From positions 62,001-126,000 of the IMG/VR virus record IMGVR_UViG_3300046660_000219: a DNA stretch of 64,000 nucleotides. One strand, given 5' to 3'. Origin of the DNA: a virus. Below the pieces are notes generated by a model that did not search any database, was not told the origin of the DNA, and saw only the letters and a program-made list of their open reading frames with translations. Numbering within the stretch: the stretch's first letter is position 1; each line of letters starts with the position of its first letter. Both the position numbers and the translations under genes were made by a program. Below, one piece after another: positions 28,785 through 62,967 of the stretch.

Positions 28785-29729
28785 ATGTTCACTGAACAGC
28801 AACGCACGACTATCCAGTCGATCATTCAGATTTTTGAGACTGGCGGCTTATCTAAAAAAGGGTATGGCATCATCACCAACCTGCGTGATGATCGCGGCGG
28901 TCTTACCTATGGTAAGCATCAAGCCTCGCTCAATTCCGGTTCGCTCTTTGGGATGCTGAAAGGGTATAGCGAGAACCCGCAAGCCCAGTACGGGCGCGCT
29001 TTCCTGCCTTATCTGCAACGACTAGCCAACGCTGACGCTTCGCTGTCTACCGACCAAGCATTCATGCAACTGTTACGCAACGCCGGTATCGATCCTATCA
29101 TGGCGTACGAGCAAGATAAGTTCTTTGCACAACGGTATTTTCAACCGGCCGAAGCTTGGTTGGCGTCGCGTGGCTACGTGCACGCGCTGACGTTGGCTAT
29201 CGTTTACGACAGCTTCATTCACGGGTCGTTCAAGCGGATCAACGCGAATATTCCGCTAGGTTCCGAGAACATGTGGGCTTACAATTACGTCAACGCTCGA
29301 CGTAATTGGCTAGCCAATTCGCGCAACCCCTTGCTGCGAAACTGCGTCTATCGACCCGATACCTTTAGCTCGATGATCAAAGCCAATCGCTGGGATCTTG
29401 AGCTGCCGCTGACGATCCGTGGCGTTACGATCCGTGCTGGGCTAGATACGGTAGCACCAGTACCTAACCCGTCTGTTCTTTTCAACAACGTTTCAGCGCA
29501 ACCGCTGTTGCGGCAAGGCATGCGCGATCCCGCGCCCGGCGGCGACGTCAGCTATCTACAAGACTTGCTGAACAAGAACGGTTATCCGATCCATATCGAT
29601 GGTGACTACGGTCAACGTACCTTTATGGCGGTCACCGCTTTCCAAGGCTCGCATGGTCTCACGGCTGATGGTATTGTTGGGCCGCGCACTTGGGATGTCC
29701 TTGACGACATCCTCCCGCGACATGCATAA
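28785..29729 (+). CDS. Endolysin, chitosanase-like with peptidoglycan-binding domain
   Basis: The protein is 314 residues, after AGGGGG. Residues 1-210 match phage endolysins of the chitosanase-like lysozyme superfamily: IFETGG (catalytic Glu near residue 18), a DDRGGLTYGKHQASLNSG stretch, and the Tyr/Arg-rich core. Residues about 240-314 are a peptidoglycan-binding type 1 domain (VSYLQDLLNKNGY, DGDYGQRTFMAVTAFQ, ADGIVGPRTWDVL). The enzyme cuts the glycan strands of the wall at lysis. There is no signal peptide, so it needs a holin, and one is encoded next. Confidence 0.85.
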   Translation: MFTEQQRTTIQSIIQIFETGGLSKKGYGIITNLRDDRGGLTYGKHQASLNSGSLFGMLKGYSENPQAQYGRAFLPYLQRLANADASLSTDQAFMQLLRNAGIDPIMAYEQDKFFAQRYFQPAEAWLASRGYVHALTLAIVYDSFIHGSFKRINANIPLGSENMWAYNYVNARRNWLANSRNPLLRNCVYRPDTFSSMIKANRWDLELPLTIRGVTIRAGLDTVAPVPNPSVLFNNVSAQPLLRQGMRDPAPGGDVSYLQDLLNKNGYPIHIDGDYGQRTFMAVTAFQGSHGLTADGIVGPRTWDVLDDILPRHA

Positions 29730-31268: not shown

Positions 31269-31712
31269 TTACCTTTGTGTTAGCGTCGCCTTCATGGCGC
31301 GATCGTACAGAACGACGTTGACCGTCGCGGCTAGGTTCATACAGCCGTTGGTAGGGATAAACACCCGATGCACACAGCGATCCATGTGGCGCTTACCTAG
31401 CGTCCCGTCCTCTGGACCGAAAATGTAGAACGCGTGCTCCGGATGCGCGAACGCAAACAACGACGTTGCATCAGCCACCAAATCTACTGCAACAGGAATA
31501 GTACCGACAGGATGAGCGGTGAACAAATCATCGACCATAACTGTAGGCACGCGTCTGTACGCGTGCTCAGTGTCCGTGGCATTGTTAGCGACCTCGCCGT
31601 GTGCTCGCGATTTCTCGATGGCCACTATATCGGCGTCGTAACATCCGGCAGCGCGCAACACACTACCAATATTCTCACGAGACTTTGGACGCACTAGGCC
31701 GATTGCAATCAT
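31269..31712 (-). CDS. SPOUT-type RNA 2'-O-methyltransferase
   Basis: The protein is 147 residues and starts at ATG 31712, whose ATGA overlaps the upstream stop. All three SpoU/TrmH motifs are present: NIGSVLRAAG (motif 1), FYIFGPEDGTLG (motif 2), and IPTNGCMNLAATVN (motif 3, usual SLN replaced by NLA). Length is that of a minimal SPOUT domain that dimerises over the cofactor knot. It would methylate a tRNA or rRNA ribose. A phage may use it to protect its own or host tRNAs from defence nucleases, though this is inference. The motif 3 change may affect substrate choice. Confidence 0.75.
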   Translation of the reverse strand: MIAIGLVRPKSRENIGSVLRAAGCYDADIVAIEKSRAHGEVANNATDTEHAYRRVPTVMVDDLFTAHPVGTIPVAVDLVADATSLFAFAHPEHAFYIFGPEDGTLGKRHMDRCVHRVFIPTNGCMNLAATVNVVLYDRAMKATLTQR

Positions 31713-31969
31713 GGTGCTCTCGTCTCCGCATGATCCGTCAAATCTACTTCGCGTAGGTGCTCCAGACGGTTCCAATCCCGCCGCAATTTCACCAATTGCT
31801 TGTGGATGCGTGCGTACTGTTTCTTGGCTTTAAGTGTACTGGCATGTGGCAAGGTCGCGTGCAAAGCTTCCGCCGCTCTCCGCATGGACACTTGCGCCTG
31901 TTTGTACTCCTCTAAGAAGATGTTGCTGGGCAGCTCTCCGGCCTCTTTGACGTTGCAGACGATGCACAT
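31709..31969 (-). CDS. Small CxxC helical protein
   Basis: The protein is 86 residues, starting MCIVCNV with one CxxC pair and then all helix (EYKQAQVSMRRAAEALHA, KQYARIHKQLVKLRRDWNRL). It overlaps the methyltransferase start by ATGA and begins 6 bases after the upstream stop, so the three are in one operon. A longer frame to 32080 exists but would overlap the upstream gene. Function unknown. Confidence 0.5.
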   Translation of the reverse strand: MCIVCNVKEAGELPSNIFLEEYKQAQVSMRRAAEALHATLPHASTLKAKKQYARIHKQLVKLRRDWNRLEHLREVDLTDHAETRAP

Positions 31970-34029: not shown

Positions 34030-34737
34030 TTATACGATGACTTCGATTATCTCGATCGGTCCGCCACCAGCGTCGCGATCAAAGACGCCAATGCACAGGC
34101 GATCATACAGATACGCGCCTACGTCGAGGCCTGTAGAGTGCTTGCGCAGGTTCGGCTCTTCGTGAATGGTATGGCCGTAGACGATGTGCTTACCGAAGTC
34201 ATGATCGACCTCAAGGAATTCGTCGCGGATCCACATCAGATCCCAGGCACTCTGACCAGACACACCCGGCCGACTGCGATTAGGATTCATGCCTGCGTGT
34301 ACAAAGGTATGGTGTTCGAAGTCGGCGGCTTCCGGTAGATTGTAAATCCACTCTTGGTGTGAAGCAGGGACCGCCCTACGTACCTTTTCATTGAAGAACG
34401 CACTGTTCGCAGGCAACAGATCCTCTTCTGTGAGGCCGTACGAAATTAGCGTCTCCTTGCCGCCCCAAGTCAGCCAATGCTCTGTACGCAGCTTCTCGAT
34501 ACCACGGAACGCTGCCATCAAGCACCACTCGTGGTTCCCCATGATGGCGTGGGCGCGCTCGTTACCTTTAGTGAAGTTGACCAACCGTTCGATCACTTCC
34601 TTGGAGTGCGGACCACGGTCAATGTAGTCACCCAGGAAAACGATCTCCCCATCCATGTGCTCAACGCGCTCTAGCGCGGCGTTCAGGATGTCAAGCCTGC
34701 CGTGGATATCCGGGATGGCGATGATGCGGTTAGTCAT
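34030..34737 (-). CDS. Metallophosphatase (PPP family, lambda phosphatase-like)
   Basis: The protein is 235 residues, after AGGAAA. The PPP signature is complete: PDIHG near residue 8, GDYIDRG near 36, GNHE near 67, HAG near 150 and YGHT near 195. Size and layout match lambda phage phosphatase and bacterial PrpA/PrpB. It binds two metal ions and removes phosphate from Ser/Thr or other phosphoesters. Possible roles include undoing host kinases or nucleotide metabolism during takeover. Active-site residues all look intact. Confidence 0.88.
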   Translation of the reverse strand: MTNRIIAIPDIHGRLDILNAALERVEHMDGEIVFLGDYIDRGPHSKEVIERLVNFTKGNERAHAIMGNHEWCLMAAFRGIEKLRTEHWLTWGGKETLISYGLTEEDLLPANSAFFNEKVRRAVPASHQEWIYNLPEAADFEHHTFVHAGMNPNRSRPGVSGQSAWDLMWIRDEFLEVDHDFGKHIVYGHTIHEEPNLRKHSTGLDVGAYLYDRLCIGVFDRDAGGGPIEIIEVIV

Positions 34738-35945: not shown

Positions 35946-36236
35946 TTATTCCGCGATGCGCCGTACGGCGAACAGGCGGTATTCGTGAAAGTCGATTTGG
36001 TATTGCGCCTCGCCGACCGTAACCAGAAGGCGTCGCAAGTTAGTGATAGTCAAATCGTTCGTGTACTTGCGATCCTTAAGACGACGCTGAATCTGTCGAG
36101 TTACTTCACGACGATGCGGCGTACCTTTATCCAGTGACGGATGATTGTTGGTGGCCTTACGTAGGCGATGCATAGCGTCACTGACCGCGTCGTCGATGGT
36201 GTTGGTAGCGATACGGTCGTCAAGCATGTGTTCCAT
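35946..36236 (-). CDS. Hypothetical basic protein
   Basis: The protein is 96 residues, helical and basic (PHRREVTRQIQRRLKDRK), with a strand pair at the end (YQIDFHEYRLFAV). It could bind nucleic acid, but that is not certain. A second ATG three codons downstream is possible. Confidence 0.45.
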   Translation of the reverse strand: MEHMLDDRIATNTIDDAVSDAMHRLRKATNNHPSLDKGTPHRREVTRQIQRRLKDRKYTNDLTITNLRRLLVTVGEAQYQIDFHEYRLFAVRRIAE

Positions 36237-36255: not shown

Positions 36256-36612
36256 TTAGCTGCGCTCGTCTTGTAGCAGCTTGATCAAGTTCTTGATGTC
36301 GGCCTTGAGTTCTTCTTGCTCTTGATGCGTGAACTCGTTTGCATCCTTGATGCCGCGAGAACAGATCTGCCCGATGATCAATGGCAGGATTAATAGTAGT
36401 GTGACGTGCATCAACACCACGCCAATAATTCTGCCTGGCAGTGTCACCGGGTACATGTCACCATAGCCAACAATGGTGGCTGTTACGCAGGCCCACCACA
36501 GGCTGTCGAGAAAAGGTTTTCCCTCGAAGTGCGCGAACATGGCTGCGCTAACGATCAGAAGCACGAGGTAGTAGAATAGTAACTCTTTGATGGTGTCGAA
36601 GTACTTGTGCAT
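36256..36612 (-). CDS. Phage-encoded potassium channel pore (KcsA-like)
   Basis: The protein is 118 residues: a first membrane span (about 11-28), pore helix (36-46) with the selectivity filter TATIVGYGD (44-52), and an MYPVTLPGR turn as in KcsA, then a second span (about 60-82) and a charged C-terminal helix (96-118). It is a minimal two-span K+ channel subunit that would assemble as a tetramer. The threonine usually next to the VGYGD core is isoleucine here. Insertion in the host membrane could depolarise it. It may act in entry, host takeover or lysis. Phage-borne channels of this type are rarely described; the best-known viral ones are algal-virus Kcv proteins. Confidence 0.85.
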
Positions 36613-36624
36613 TGGTTGTGCTCT

Positions 36625-37038
36625 CTACTTCAGGAACCACTCGAACCAACGGGTGCGTGGCCTGCTGATCTGCTTAGCCACTTCTGAAGCTTTGAGCGTC
36701 TTACCAATACCGTAGGGCGCGATACACGCGTCACCAATGGCCTTGGCTAGCGCTGTGGCTGGGTGGCCTGCGCACATGGTATGGCTCGATAGAATAGATG
36801 CGACATGATCGCCCGAGCACACGATAACGATACGTGCTGCCGCGTTAGTTGGTTCCCAACGATCGACGACCTTGTGTTGTTTAACCAAGGCACGCACGTC
36901 CACTACCATTTCACCGAACTCATCACCCTCCGGAGCTTGTAGCGTCATATAGTCGCCTGTGCTCTCGATGACAGTCCAGCCTAGAGCAATCCGCTCTAGT
37001 ATTTCGGTGGCGTGATATTCAGCATACTCGGCGTTCAT
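36625..37038 (-). CDS. Hypothetical protein
   Basis: The protein is 137 residues, after GGAGG. Mixed strands and helices with VIVCSGDHVASIL and a conserved-looking CAGHP; no membrane span. It lies 12 bases before the channel gene and may be co-translated. No family recognised. Confidence 0.5.
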   Translation of the reverse strand: MNAEYAEYHATEILERIALGWTVIESTGDYMTLQAPEGDEFGEMVVDVRALVKQHKVVDRWEPTNAAARIVIVCSGDHVASILSSHTMCAGHPATALAKAIGDACIAPYGIGKTLKASEVAKQISRPRTRWFEWFLK

Positions 37039-37041
37039 GCT

Positions 37042-37377
37042 TTAATCCTCCGCCTTGGGTGCGCTGCCCCAAATCACCGACATCTTCATACCGTTTTGCA
37101 GCACGTGCACGGAGGGCCGACCTGGATTTGCACGTGCTTTCGCTATCATTTGAGCGACGTCGTTTTGCTCTGCACGCTTGTTGAAGTACGTCAGAACGCC
37201 GCTAGTAAAGAAGCCGCTAAGCATCAACCCGATTGCTACCCAGCTTTTCCACGTGCGCCCGCCATCAGCTCCTACAATGTAGGAGGCTAACACCCACGTG
37301 TATACGTCTAAACGTGTAGAGTACGACTGTACCAACCACCGGGAAATCTTTCCGCAGATGCTAGTTACTTTTTTCAT
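37042..37377 (-). CDS. Small membrane protein
   Basis: The protein is 111 residues, after GAGGGGT, with ATGA overlap to the upstream gene. Two hydrophobic stretches (about 27-37 and 45-63, with WVAIGLMLSGFFTSGVLTYF the stronger) suggest one or two membrane spans, followed by a soluble tail. It sits two genes upstream of the potassium channel and could be a partner; function unknown. Confidence 0.5.
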   Translation of the reverse strand: MKKVTSICGKISRWLVQSYSTRLDVYTWVLASYIVGADGGRTWKSWVAIGLMLSGFFTSGVLTYFNKRAEQNDVAQMIAKARANPGRPSVHVLQNGMKMSVIWGSAPKAED

Positions 37378-37664: not shown

Positions 37665-38069
37665 CTAGAACAGCCCGAAACGCTTCTTCGGTTTCGGCTG
37701 CGGTTTGGTGTCCGAAACAGTAGGCTGCGTGGTAGGGGTGGGGGCGTTGACTTTATCGAGACAGTCATTCGTGACCTTGGCTCGATTTTGCCACTTGTCC
37801 TCACGACGTTTGAACGTCGAATGGTTGGCCAGGATAGCACGAAGGTCTTCCGCCGTCACCCCCGCCACAATATCCCCGACCTTGCCCGCTAGATCGGTCG
37901 GCAGGGCCTTGAACGTCCATAAGGACAGGGGTTCGACAGGCGGAGCCTCGACATGCTGACACATGGCCACGTTGAGAACCAACGGCGGCGCAGTGGGCGG
38001 GCGATTCGTCCCACACGCGGCGAGTGACGCCGATACGAAACATAGGCCTACTAAATTAGGGATGCGCAT
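37665..38069 (-). CDS. Probable outer-membrane spanin subunit (Rz1-like lipoprotein)
   Basis: The protein is 134 residues; ATG 38069 follows a TAAAGGTATACGTC leader. A lipoprotein signal peptide ends in the lipobox LAAC with the lipid-bearing Cys at residue 19. The mature part is Pro/Thr-rich with two further Cys. Rz1-like outer-membrane lipoproteins are Pro-rich, which fits. The i-spanin gene is immediately upstream, separated only by a 48-residue Zn-ribbon gene. Together they would join inner and outer membranes after wall digestion and break the envelope, which implies a Gram-negative host. Confidence 0.62.
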   Translation of the reverse strand: MRIPNLVGLCFVSASLAACGTNRPPTAPPLVLNVAMCQHVEAPPVEPLSLWTFKALPTDLAGKVGDIVAGVTAEDLRAILANHSTFKRREDKWQNRAKVTNDCLDKVNAPTPTTQPTVSDTKPQPKPKKRFGLF

Positions 38070-38080
38070 GACGTATACCT

Positions 38081-38227
38081 TTATGGGTGAGGATATTCTG
38101 TGCAGAGTGAATAGGTATGACCGCACTTGTCGCACATACGATGTTCCATGTAGTACGAGGGCCAGCTAATCACTCGGTGATACTTGCTGTGAAACAGGCG
38201 ACACCATATGCGCGCCCAGATATTCAT
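38081..38227 (-). CDS. Small zinc-ribbon protein (48 residues)
   Basis: ATG 38227 overlaps the i-spanin stop as ATGA, and the TAA lies 11 bases before the o-spanin start, so it fits snugly between the two spanin genes. A CDKCGHTYSLC core near the end holds three Cys and a His, suggesting one zinc site. The first half is aromatic and basic (WARIWCRLFHSKYHRV). Too short for most gene callers. Function unknown. Confidence 0.68.
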   Translation of the reverse strand: MNIWARIWCRLFHSKYHRVISWPSYYMEHRMCDKCGHTYSLCTEYPHP

Positions 38228-38655
38228 CGTGGTGCCACAGCGGGTTGCGGAATGGTAGGCGTAGCAGCGTTGGCGTCGTAGAACGACGTGTTGATAGAGT
38301 CGATCAACCAGTTGGCCGTCGTCAGATCGCGCTCACGCACTACCTTTTCAATGATCTTACCACGATCGATGTAGCGAATATCCGTCTTGCTGTCGGCCGA
38401 TGCTAGGTTAGCGTTTTGGTCCAAGAGAGACTTATTGGCCTTCTCTAGTGTTTTGGCTCCGGCCTCCGCGCCGTCTGCCCGCTTCTTCTCGTCGTTGGCG
38501 CGATGCTGCTCTTCGTCGCGCTGTTTCTTCAGGTTCGAAACCTCTTTGACGTGGTTGAGTTGCGTGATCGAGAAACCTGCCGCACCTAAGCTGCCGCCGA
38601 CCAGAAGTAGAGCCGACAAGCCGATGATGATGTATTCTTTGATACCTAATACCAT
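38224..38655 (-). CDS. Probable inner-membrane spanin subunit (Rz-like)
   Basis: The protein is 143 residues; ATG 38655 is chosen so that the N-terminal membrane segment (about 8-29, YIIIGLSALLLVGGSLGAAG) is intact. It is followed by a long Glu/Lys/Arg-rich coiled coil (35-100), as in lambda Rz, and a C-terminal part with NWLIDSINTSFYDA, the kind of segment that meets the o-spanin. No catalytic motif. Position, topology and composition together support i-spanin. Confidence 0.65.
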   Translation of the reverse strand: MVLGIKEYIIIGLSALLLVGGSLGAAGFSITQLNHVKEVSNLKKQRDEEQHRANDEKKRADGAEAGAKTLEKANKSLLDQNANLASADSKTDIRYIDRGKIIEKVVRERDLTTANWLIDSINTSFYDANAATPTIPQPAVAPR

Positions 38656-38665
38656 TTCACTCTCC

Positions 38666-38893
38666 CTAGGCTTGGTGGTTGGCGCGCTGGAGGACCGTGC
38701 GGTGATCAGTGTTGACGCGAGCGTTCGAATCCGCGATCCGTTCCTCGCCACCGATTTCATTCAGAACAATGGTACCATCGGGTTCATACATGCGGAACAC
38801 GTCACCGGCTTCTATCTGCCCGAATTGAGCATCAACGAAGCTACCATTTTTATCTTTTATCTGCACTCGGCGCAGGTTTTCGGGAGTTACCAT
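38666..38893 (-). CDS. Small hypothetical protein
   Basis: The protein is 75 residues. ATG 38893 is chosen because of AAGGA at good spacing; ATG 38911 (after GAGG) is an alternative. A strand-rich fold (RVQIKDKNGSFVDAQFG, DVFRMYEPDGTIV). Preceded by a terminator, so it probably starts a new transcript with the spanins. Confidence 0.5.
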   Translation of the reverse strand: MVTPENLRRVQIKDKNGSFVDAQFGQIEAGDVFRMYEPDGTIVLNEIGGEERIADSNARVNTDHRTVLQRANHQA

Positions 38894-42232: not shown

Positions 42233-42465
42233 TTTGCTATACCCAACGCTGTTTGAATGATCAGTTGTTGCTCACGACGTCCGCGCTCGTAAGCTTCTTG
42301 CATTAATTGCGCGATGCGCTCTGCGGAGAGCGGCACGTTCGGGTGCATTGACTGCTGTTGATCGACTGGATTAACCCAGCCCTGATCATTATGCAGGCGG
42401 CGGTATAGGACACCGTCCTTTTCGTAGTATTTCGTGTGACCTGGGCCGCGTGGTACGTCAGACAT
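42229..42465 (-). CDS. Small hypothetical protein
   Basis: The protein is 78 residues, polar with a helical end (AERIAQLMQEAYERGRREQQLII). Stop and start overlap with the neighbours. Unknown function. Confidence 0.5.
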   Translation of the reverse strand: MSDVPRGPGHTKYYEKDGVLYRRLHNDQGWVNPVDQQQSMHPNVPLSAERIAQLMQEAYERGRREQQLIIQTALGIAK

Positions 42466-42904
42466 TGGTAAGCGTGCTCCTCTTTTTGGTCCTCACTGTT
42501 ACCGCACAATAAATCGATGCGATGACGATCGTCAGGCATTCCAACGTGTAATTCACGTCAACGATCACAAAATACAGCAAGTGTGAAAACAGCTCTAGGG
42601 CTCGTGCCAAACTCACCAGCATTTCTAACAAAAACAAATAGTACAGTACGCTGAGCCACATCGCGCGATGGTCGATGTTCAGCAGATACACCGCCACGTA
42701 GCAGATACCCGGCACCATAAGGTACTGTTCTAAATCATTCAGCTCATGGTAATTGGCTATGATCACGTTGGACACTAGACAGTTAGTAAGCATAAGTACA
42801 CCAGCTAACTGTAATCGCTTGTCTTTGGTGAGCAGGTAAGCACTGGCGATGGCAAACAGAGCCATCGCCAGGAAGCCCGCTATTATGAGGACTTCGCTAG
42901 TCAC
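42458..42904 (-). CDS. Four-span membrane protein
   Basis: The protein is 148 residues and begins at GTG 42904, with AAAGG eight bases ahead and the upstream stop three bases before. Four hydrophobic spans (about 5-24, 32-50, 62-85, 88-108, with another toward 120-135) indicate an inner-membrane protein of at least four spans. No enzymatic motif. It may have an exclusion or envelope role. Confidence 0.58.
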   Translation of the reverse strand: MTSEVLIIAGFLAMALFAIASAYLLTKDKRLQLAGVLMLTNCLVSNVIIANYHELNDLEQYLMVPGICYVAVYLLNIDHRAMWLSVLYYLFLLEMLVSLARALELFSHLLYFVIVDVNYTLECLTIVIASIYCAVTVRTKKRSTLTNV

Positions 42905-61416: not shown

Positions 61417-62967
61417 TTATTCGTCGGATAGATCGTCTGAAGTCTGCCCAACCTTCTTTTGGCGAGCAGCAGCCATCAGTTCTATCGTTTCTCGACGTTG
61501 TAGTTGCGAGAAGGCTTCCGCGCGCATACGAGGAATACGATCGAAACCATTTTCCTTGAGCGCTTTGGCGTACTTACCGCCAAATTTCTCAGCCAGCACG
61601 AAGGTTTTGAACTGCATCCACGTCATCAGTTCAAGGTGCTTGTGTTTAGGCAGCGTTACCTTAAATTTGAGGTGTCGCTTACCTTCAACTTGACCCGTAA
61701 CAACGAGGTAGCGCCACAGATCGAAGACTGGATCAATGCCACGGCCAAGACCGTCAGGATCGCCCGTCCAGATACGGCACCAATCTTTCAGAAACGGCTG
61801 ACCCGCCTTGTTCTTGACGTTGGTCAGGCCTTTGAAAGAATAGTAGTCATTACCACCGAGCGGATTAGGCTCGATGTTCAACGCACTACTTACCTTATCT
61901 TTCGCGAAGCTACCGGGAGCCCCGTCAACAGCACGTGTCCTAATCCATGTACGCTGCACAGATGATAGCTTGAGGACGTTGCCGCACGCTTCATATTCCG
62001 TGGGGCCGTGGGTGACACCCGGCTTGTCACGCAATGAATTAGCACTCACCAGCACCACGCCTTTACGACGGAAGCGACCGGCCACTAACGGTAGCATTTC
62101 TGCTAGCTTACGCGCCTTCTCCGACATACCTCCGCTGGAACCCAACTCACGCTCGTCAGCAGCGTCAGTGATCAACGCTGGCCACGAGTCCAAAGCCAAG
62201 CACAACTGCGGTTTGGTGTCTTCCGTCAAAAAGATAGCGTAGTCACGGTTAGACAACTTGGCGTCGGGCTTCACGCCACCTTTGCTCATGCCTTCAATTA
62301 GAGCTAGATGGTTCTTGTTACTCTTATCAAACCGGAGAACGAACGATTGAGCTACATCGTCCCAGATTTTGTCAGGCAACACCCGCATGGTGGCGCGCAG
62401 GAAGTTGAAATAGTTCTCCAGGATATTTTGGTCGTGGTAACGCAGACGCGACATGAGGGCGGCGTCGAAATCCTTCCCCATGGATTGCATCATTAGTTCG
62501 TGAGCAAGACTGTTCTCCGCGTCGTTGATACCGCTGCGGATGTTCTGCATGAGGGCTTCACCCAACGTGTGAGTGATAGTGGTCGTCTTGCCCGAACCTT
62601 CTGGCCCTACCATTTGGCAGATACCCAAAGGAACCCAACCGCCGCCGTGCAGGATGTCGATCATCAACGAGCCTGACGAGATACGGTCGAGAGTATGGAC
62701 GCCACCAACCATTTCGTACTTCTTGGCGGCGGTGTCGAATTCGAGATCCAACAAGTAGGCTAGATCATACTCGTTAGCGATGACAATAGAACTACCCTTG
62801 CCTGCCTTGGCGCTCACGTCATGCGCAACGACAGCGGGTAGATTACTACCCTTGTTAGCACGTCCGCGTGCGGTCTTGACCGGCGCAGCACGAGCCTTTG
62901 TAGGAGCCGGCTTGACCGGCTTAGCGGGTGCGGCCTTTTGGACCGCTTTGGTGGCTCTGCTAACCAT
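61417..62967 (-). CDS. RecA/UvsX-like recombinase
   Basis: The protein is 516 residues. Residues 1-50 are Ala/Lys/Pro-rich and disordered. The core holds GPEGSGKTT (121-129), CLALDSW (Walker B), SSGGMSEKARKLAE (RecA signature region), VVLVSANSL and GGDALKFS-like parts (EACGNVLKLSS). It forms filaments on ssDNA and drives strand exchange, feeding recombination-dependent replication with the SF2 helicase and SSB-like gene next to it. The C-terminal 130 residues are longer than in RecA. Confidence 0.88.
   Translation of the reverse strand: MVSRATKAVQKAAPAKPVKPAPTKARAAPVKTARGRANKGSNLPAVVAHDVSAKAGKGSSIVIANEYDLAYLLDLEFDTAAKKYEMVGGVHTLDRISSGSLMIDILHGGGWVPLGICQMVGPEGSGKTTTITHTLGEALMQNIRSGINDAENSLAHELMMQSMGKDFDAALMSRLRYHDQNILENYFNFLRATMRVLPDKIWDDVAQSFVLRFDKSNKNHLALIEGMSKGGVKPDAKLSNRDYAIFLTEDTKPQLCLALDSWPALITDAADERELGSSGGMSEKARKLAEMLPLVAGRFRRKGVVLVSANSLRDKPGVTHGPTEYEACGNVLKLSSVQRTWIRTRAVDGAPGSFAKDKVSSALNIEPNPLGGNDYYSFKGLTNVKNKAGQPFLKDWCRIWTGDPDGLGRGIDPVFDLWRYLVVTGQVEGKRHLKFKVTLPKHKHLELMTWMQFKTFVLAEKFGGKYAKALKENGFDRIPRMRAEAFSQLQRRETIELMAAARQKKVGQTSDDLSDE

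Follow-up and report, generated by a model that had tools for sequence, protein, structure and literature searches.

Introduction

In KcsA, the hydroxyl group of Thr75 lines ion site S4, and to our knowledge a threonine side chain at this site is kept by almost every other potassium channel. Engineered KcsA variants carrying T75C, T75G or T75A lose the S4 ion, the conductance of T75X mutants is 3- to 17-fold lower, and no conduction was obtained for T75A in one force field (PMC11251424). Selectivity reports for mutants at the S4 position conflict across channels: Shaker T442A and Kv1.5 T480A remain selective for K+, whereas NaK2K T63A and MthK T59A are not selective (PMC11251424). The equivalent filter position of KCNQ1, T312, also lines S4, and T312I is listed as a long-QT mutation (PMC7212895).

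Phage K+ channels were reported in 2018, using a definition of viral K+ channels based on G(Y/F)GD and two transmembrane helices, without Thr/Ser at S4 (PMC6163359). That report included Myrna, Phabba, ME3, ventosus and BillNye, all of which carry members of the phrog_14690 family studied here, so that the view taken in a preliminary description of the present locus, that such channels are rarely discussed in phages, needs correction. In addition, a type of operon has been described in which a K+ channel is combined with glutathionylspermidine (GSP) synthase, DUF350 and DUF1190 genes (PMC11237479). Here, we describe a phage-encoded member of phrog_14690 that carries isoleucine at S4.

Identification of the channel gene

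The window analyzed is a stretch of 64,000 nucleotides, corresponding to positions 62,001 to 126,000 of IMG/VR record IMGVR_UViG_3300046660_000219; coordinates below refer to this window. The complete record, that of a tailed phage, measures 205,908 bp and contains a terminase, a major head protein and a tail sheath, supporting the presumed phage origin. The channel gene was located on the minus strand, running from 36612 to 36256 with an ATG start codon and a TAA stop codon, and encodes 118 amino acids (118 protein letters not shown). The plus strand is interrupted by stop codons over the same interval. The coordinates 36256-36612 proposed earlier were thereby borne out, with the gene reading on the minus strand.

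A Shine-Dalgarno-like motif, GAGAG, is present 8 nt upstream of the ATG. The start codon lies 12 bp from the stop of the upstream gene (36625..37038, minus strand, 137 aa), and a gap of approximately 20 bp separates the channel gene from the next start, that of the downstream gene (35946..36236, minus strand, 96 aa). Both flanking genes belong to the same tightly packed strand block, and searching their products against Pfam and PHROG yielded no match for either.

Fold and family assignment

The protein matched Pfam Ion_trans_2 with E=1.2e-12 and 48 bits (curated cut-off 22.5) and the phrog_14690 profile with E=8.3e-36 over residues 2-115, nearly its whole length. Using phmmer, solved KcsA constructs were matched with an E-value of about 5e-10 and Lmo2059 (4h33) with E=9.4e-12. 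Because of these concurring matches, the channel assignment is not due to chance.

A single-chain AlphaFold2 model, computed from an input alignment of 54 sequences, reached a pLDDT of 92.5. In it, a pore helix and a filter loop are flanked by two transmembrane helices, all encoded on the minus strand: TM1 (residues 8-30, 36523..36591), the pore helix (residues 34-45, 36478..36513) with a tryptophan pair at 39-40, the selectivity filter I-V-G-Y-G-D (residues 47-52, 36457..36474) with the GYGD signature at 49-52, and TM2 (residues 58-87, 36352..36441) with Pro77, which is kept in 51 of 53 homologues. The C-terminal part (residues 94-117, 36262..36333) combines the ten-residue FTHxEQExxK motif with a cytoplasmic helix, modeled at residues 96-117; FTHQEQE at 94-100 fits the [FW][TS]--EQ motif that, together with a helix, marks phrog_14690. 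Both TATIVGYGD and MYPVT were read in the pore (14 protein letters not shown). The 118-residue protein with two membrane spans around a pore, as outlined in the preliminary description, was thus seen in the translation as well as in the model.

The best PDB match of the model was KcsA (1k4c; 1.5 Å over 85 columns, TM-scores 0.61 and 0.69). Among viral structures, a phage protein annotated 'Potassium channel domain' matched best, followed by giant- and algal-virus channels with weak E-values. A holin identity was rejected on the basis of the fold, holin matches being of low probability. Taken together, the Pfam and PHROG matches and the model support a K+-channel pore fold, and the phage gene belongs to phrog_14690, whose proteins are of the two-helix K+-channel type. 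The likeness to KcsA stressed earlier stands as far as the fold is concerned; however, the nearest kin are a phage and bacterial two-helix family with its own C-terminal motif. Of the E71-D80 pair located behind the filter of KcsA, only the aspartate is kept (Asp52), and the E71 position is taken by Val43.

Residue 47 of the selectivity filter

The stretch from L38 to D52 aligns with L66 to D80 of KcsA at an offset of 28, and it does so without gaps, as it does against 53 homologues; Ile47 therefore occupies the position of KcsA T75. Its codon is ATT, at 36472-36474. Among 62 distinct family members, the S4 residue is threonine in 58 and serine in the other four, and the isoleucine in place of the usual threonine at the innermost ion site, pointed out from the initial reading of the DNA, was confirmed. 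Near-invariant positions of the family are E30, W39, W40, T44, residue 47, GYGD at 49-52, P55, G60, P77 and F94-T95-H96-x-E98-Q99-E100. The window protein agrees with 17 of these 18 columns, residue 47 being the sole departure, and since the other columns are kept, the reading frame does not resemble a gene in decay. A pseudogene was ruled out on the same count.

Further occurrences of the isoleucine filter were sought with the codon pattern T-x-x-I-[VIM]-G-Y-G-D-x-x-P. In IMG/VR, five stretches matched, none of which was a channel by translation, and 385 alphaproteobacterial genomes gave no match. The threonine version of the pattern matched at least 120 stretches in IMG/VR, not all of which were checked, and gave 17 matches in 41 of the alphaproteobacterial genomes. 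No nucleotide relatives were present in the phage collection, a single-sequence protein scan for close relatives returned one match, at 39%, and a scan with the protein of jumbo phage L018 revealed no second isoleucine copy. As pattern and homologue scans may omit records near the window's own, close kin bearing isoleucine could exist. Ile47 is known from one metagenomic contig, and as far as these searches reach, the isoleucine filter is new, as is the family member itself.

Distribution and phylogeny of the family

Among isolate phages, relatives were found in those infecting Pseudomonas, Acinetobacter, Aeromonas, Streptomyces and Mycobacterium; further relatives are encoded at 27 IMG/VR loci and, as cellular genes, in Alphaproteobacteria, Actinobacteria, Betaproteobacteria and others. 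The family is kept with intact filters across unrelated phages and bacteria, which removes the objection that the channel might lack homologues. In a maximum-likelihood tree, nine changes between virus and cell labels were counted, at least four of which are forced by well-supported branches; the present gene adds to a phage channel family with repeated virus-cell transfer. The window protein was placed nearest to that of L018, and otherwise without further resolution among alphaproteobacterial sequences. Its end branch (0.58; median 0.33) was not flagged as long.

Genome context

Both the terminase and the head protein of the record have counterparts with 33-37% identity in large phages that infect Rhizobium and Pseudomonas putida. 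These phages, the nearest isolates by the two proteins, are absent from the matches of the channel family, and for this reason the channel is regarded as an accessory gene. The earlier description of its surroundings, an accessory block that includes further membrane proteins, is fair: the same strand block encodes a hydrophobic multi-span protein (42458-42904), an Rz-like protein (38224-38760, minus strand; weak phrog_2466 match, E=0.005), a lipobox protein (37665-38135, minus strand) and one more protein that has a hydrophobic span (37042-37377). The Rz-like and lipobox proteins may form a spanin pair upstream of the channel. Among the neighbours of the channel, no gene points to a function. 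No synteny was seen with the closest jumbo phage, L018, where the channel adjoins tail-fibre-like genes.

Elsewhere in the window, an endolysin (28785-29729, plus strand) carries a peptidoglycan-binding domain in addition to a chitosanase-type domain of glycosyl hydrolase family 46. The accessory block also encodes a SpoU-type RNA methylase domain protein (31269-31775, minus strand; Pfam E=1.3e-14), and a NinI-like serine/threonine phosphatase or calcineurin-like phosphoesterase is encoded at 34030-34737 (minus strand).

Channel family members adjoin genes for GSP-synthase-like ATP-grasp, DUF350 and DUF1190 proteins in other phages and bacteria (loci L028, L037, L006 and L068). At L028:3679-6336, in a phage of 307,821 bp, DUF350, a DUF1190-like lipoprotein, a GSP_synth ATP-grasp protein and a K+ channel are encoded consecutively on one strand; DUF350 and the GSP synthase were confirmed by Pfam, and the lipoprotein was assigned as DUF1190-like by us, without a Pfam match. 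More broadly, 62 IMG/VR loci (L250-L311) encode a GSP-synthase-like ATP-grasp protein, and many of them contain channel-like, DUF350 or DUF1190-like reading frames within 4 kb.

Discussion

We infer that the product forms a tetrameric pore in the host membrane which passes K+ weakly or in an altered manner and adjusts the host during infection, a reading to which we give an even chance. The likeliest arrangement would be four copies in the inner membrane of the host, grouped about the GYGD filter, with their C-terminal helices facing the cytoplasm and probably forming a bundle. At S4, the ring of four threonine hydroxyls would be replaced by four hydrophobic isoleucine side chains. As a result of this replacement, weak passage of K+, or a change in selectivity or gating, is the most likely behaviour of the pore, through which the phage may adjust the K+ content or the membrane potential of its host. 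A weak or altered pore would also be expected from the KcsA T75X and KCNQ1 T312I data and, because KcsA T75A was non-conducting in one force field, the pore may even be silent. Whether the isoleucine was set by selection is more doubtful. In that case, the phage would possess a tuned pore (a non-selective leak, a near-silent channel or a poison subunit) of a kind used by no described K+ channel family; we consider this possible, at well under even odds.

Alternatively, isoleucine at S4 could simply be tolerated, and the protein would then provide a conventional K+ leak as in other phage K+ channels. GYGD, both tryptophans and the remaining pore are intact, and the retained selectivity of Shaker T442A and Kv1.5 T480A (PMC11251424) is in line with such tolerance. 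Against it, threonine or serine is kept in all 62 of the homologues, and the pattern searches recovered threonine filters (17 matches in 41 genomes) but not a single isoleucine channel in IMG/VR or in the 385 genomes, so that a normal channel appears unlikely.

The Ile protein could also be non-conducting, co-assemble with a related two-helix channel of the host and silence it. Alphaproteobacteria such as Sphingomonas prati have homologues that are 45-52% identical, assembly-type features are all conserved while a single filter residue is changed, and the substitution at the equivalent site of KCNQ1 is a listed disease mutation (PMC7212895). Nevertheless, mixed tetramers may require an identity above 50%, and the change is absent from every other phage homologue; silencing of a host channel is accordingly rated as improbable.

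Similarly low expectations apply to a role in lysis, in which the channel, encoded a few genes from the spanin-like pair, would help to collapse the proton motive force or to time lysis. The Rz-like and lipobox genes do lie upstream on the same strand, and the window encodes an endolysin, though on the opposite strand. However, the Rz match is weak, and in the surroundings of the family members examined no link with lysis genes emerged.

Finally, an assembly or consensus error, or a minor strain variant (ACT to ATT) in a phage population encoding TVGYG, would agree with the single contig, with the one transition that separates the two codons and with the failure of protein scans to find a second copy, but it is very improbable, as the remaining reading frame is intact and highly conserved and the per-base frequency of consensus errors in assembled phage contigs is low, making a hit on exactly codon 47 unlikely.

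Comparison with described channels

The window protein shares with KcsA of Streptomyces lividans the tryptophan pair and the TAT-VGYGD-YPVT layout, in addition to the best PDB fold match, and differs from it by isoleucine for T75, valine for E71 and another C-terminal motif. With the algal-virus channels (Kcv, Kesv, TeV-1) it has the small, virus-encoded two-helix K+-channel fold in common, although the E-values of the fold matches are weak (0.07 and above). It is neither Kcv-like in sequence nor minimal in size, as it has an extra cytoplasmic helix; the shortest algal-virus channels (81-85 aa) leave no room for a helix of this type.

Phage and bacterial members of the channel family occur in clusters like the operons of PMC11237479, and for some members, the family thereby points to a defined bacterial context of a GSP-synthase-like ligase, DUF350 and DUF1190. 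In the phage record described here, searches for PF03738 (GSP_synth), PF03994 (DUF350) and PF06693 (DUF1190) gave no match.

Bacterial relatives (for example in Caenispirillum, Sphingomonas prati and Undibacterium) are up to 52% identical and share the FTH-EQE C-terminal motif, but are cellular genes with threonine at S4, a few of which adjoin GSP-synthase or DUF350 genes. The phage channels of phrog_14690 (Myrna gp260, Phabba, ME3 ME3_147, ventosus, phiK7A1, LAh_8 and BillNye/Wakanda) resemble the window protein in length, in the two helices, in the GYGD filter and in the C-terminal T--EQE motif, at 26-38% identity. All those read carry threonine or serine at S4, whereas the window protein carries isoleucine. 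A filter change of a kind usually made by hand in laboratories thus occurs here naturally. Since it is disputed how the S4 threonine contributes to conduction and selectivity, a natural isoleucine protein that is otherwise normally conserved provides a ready test case.
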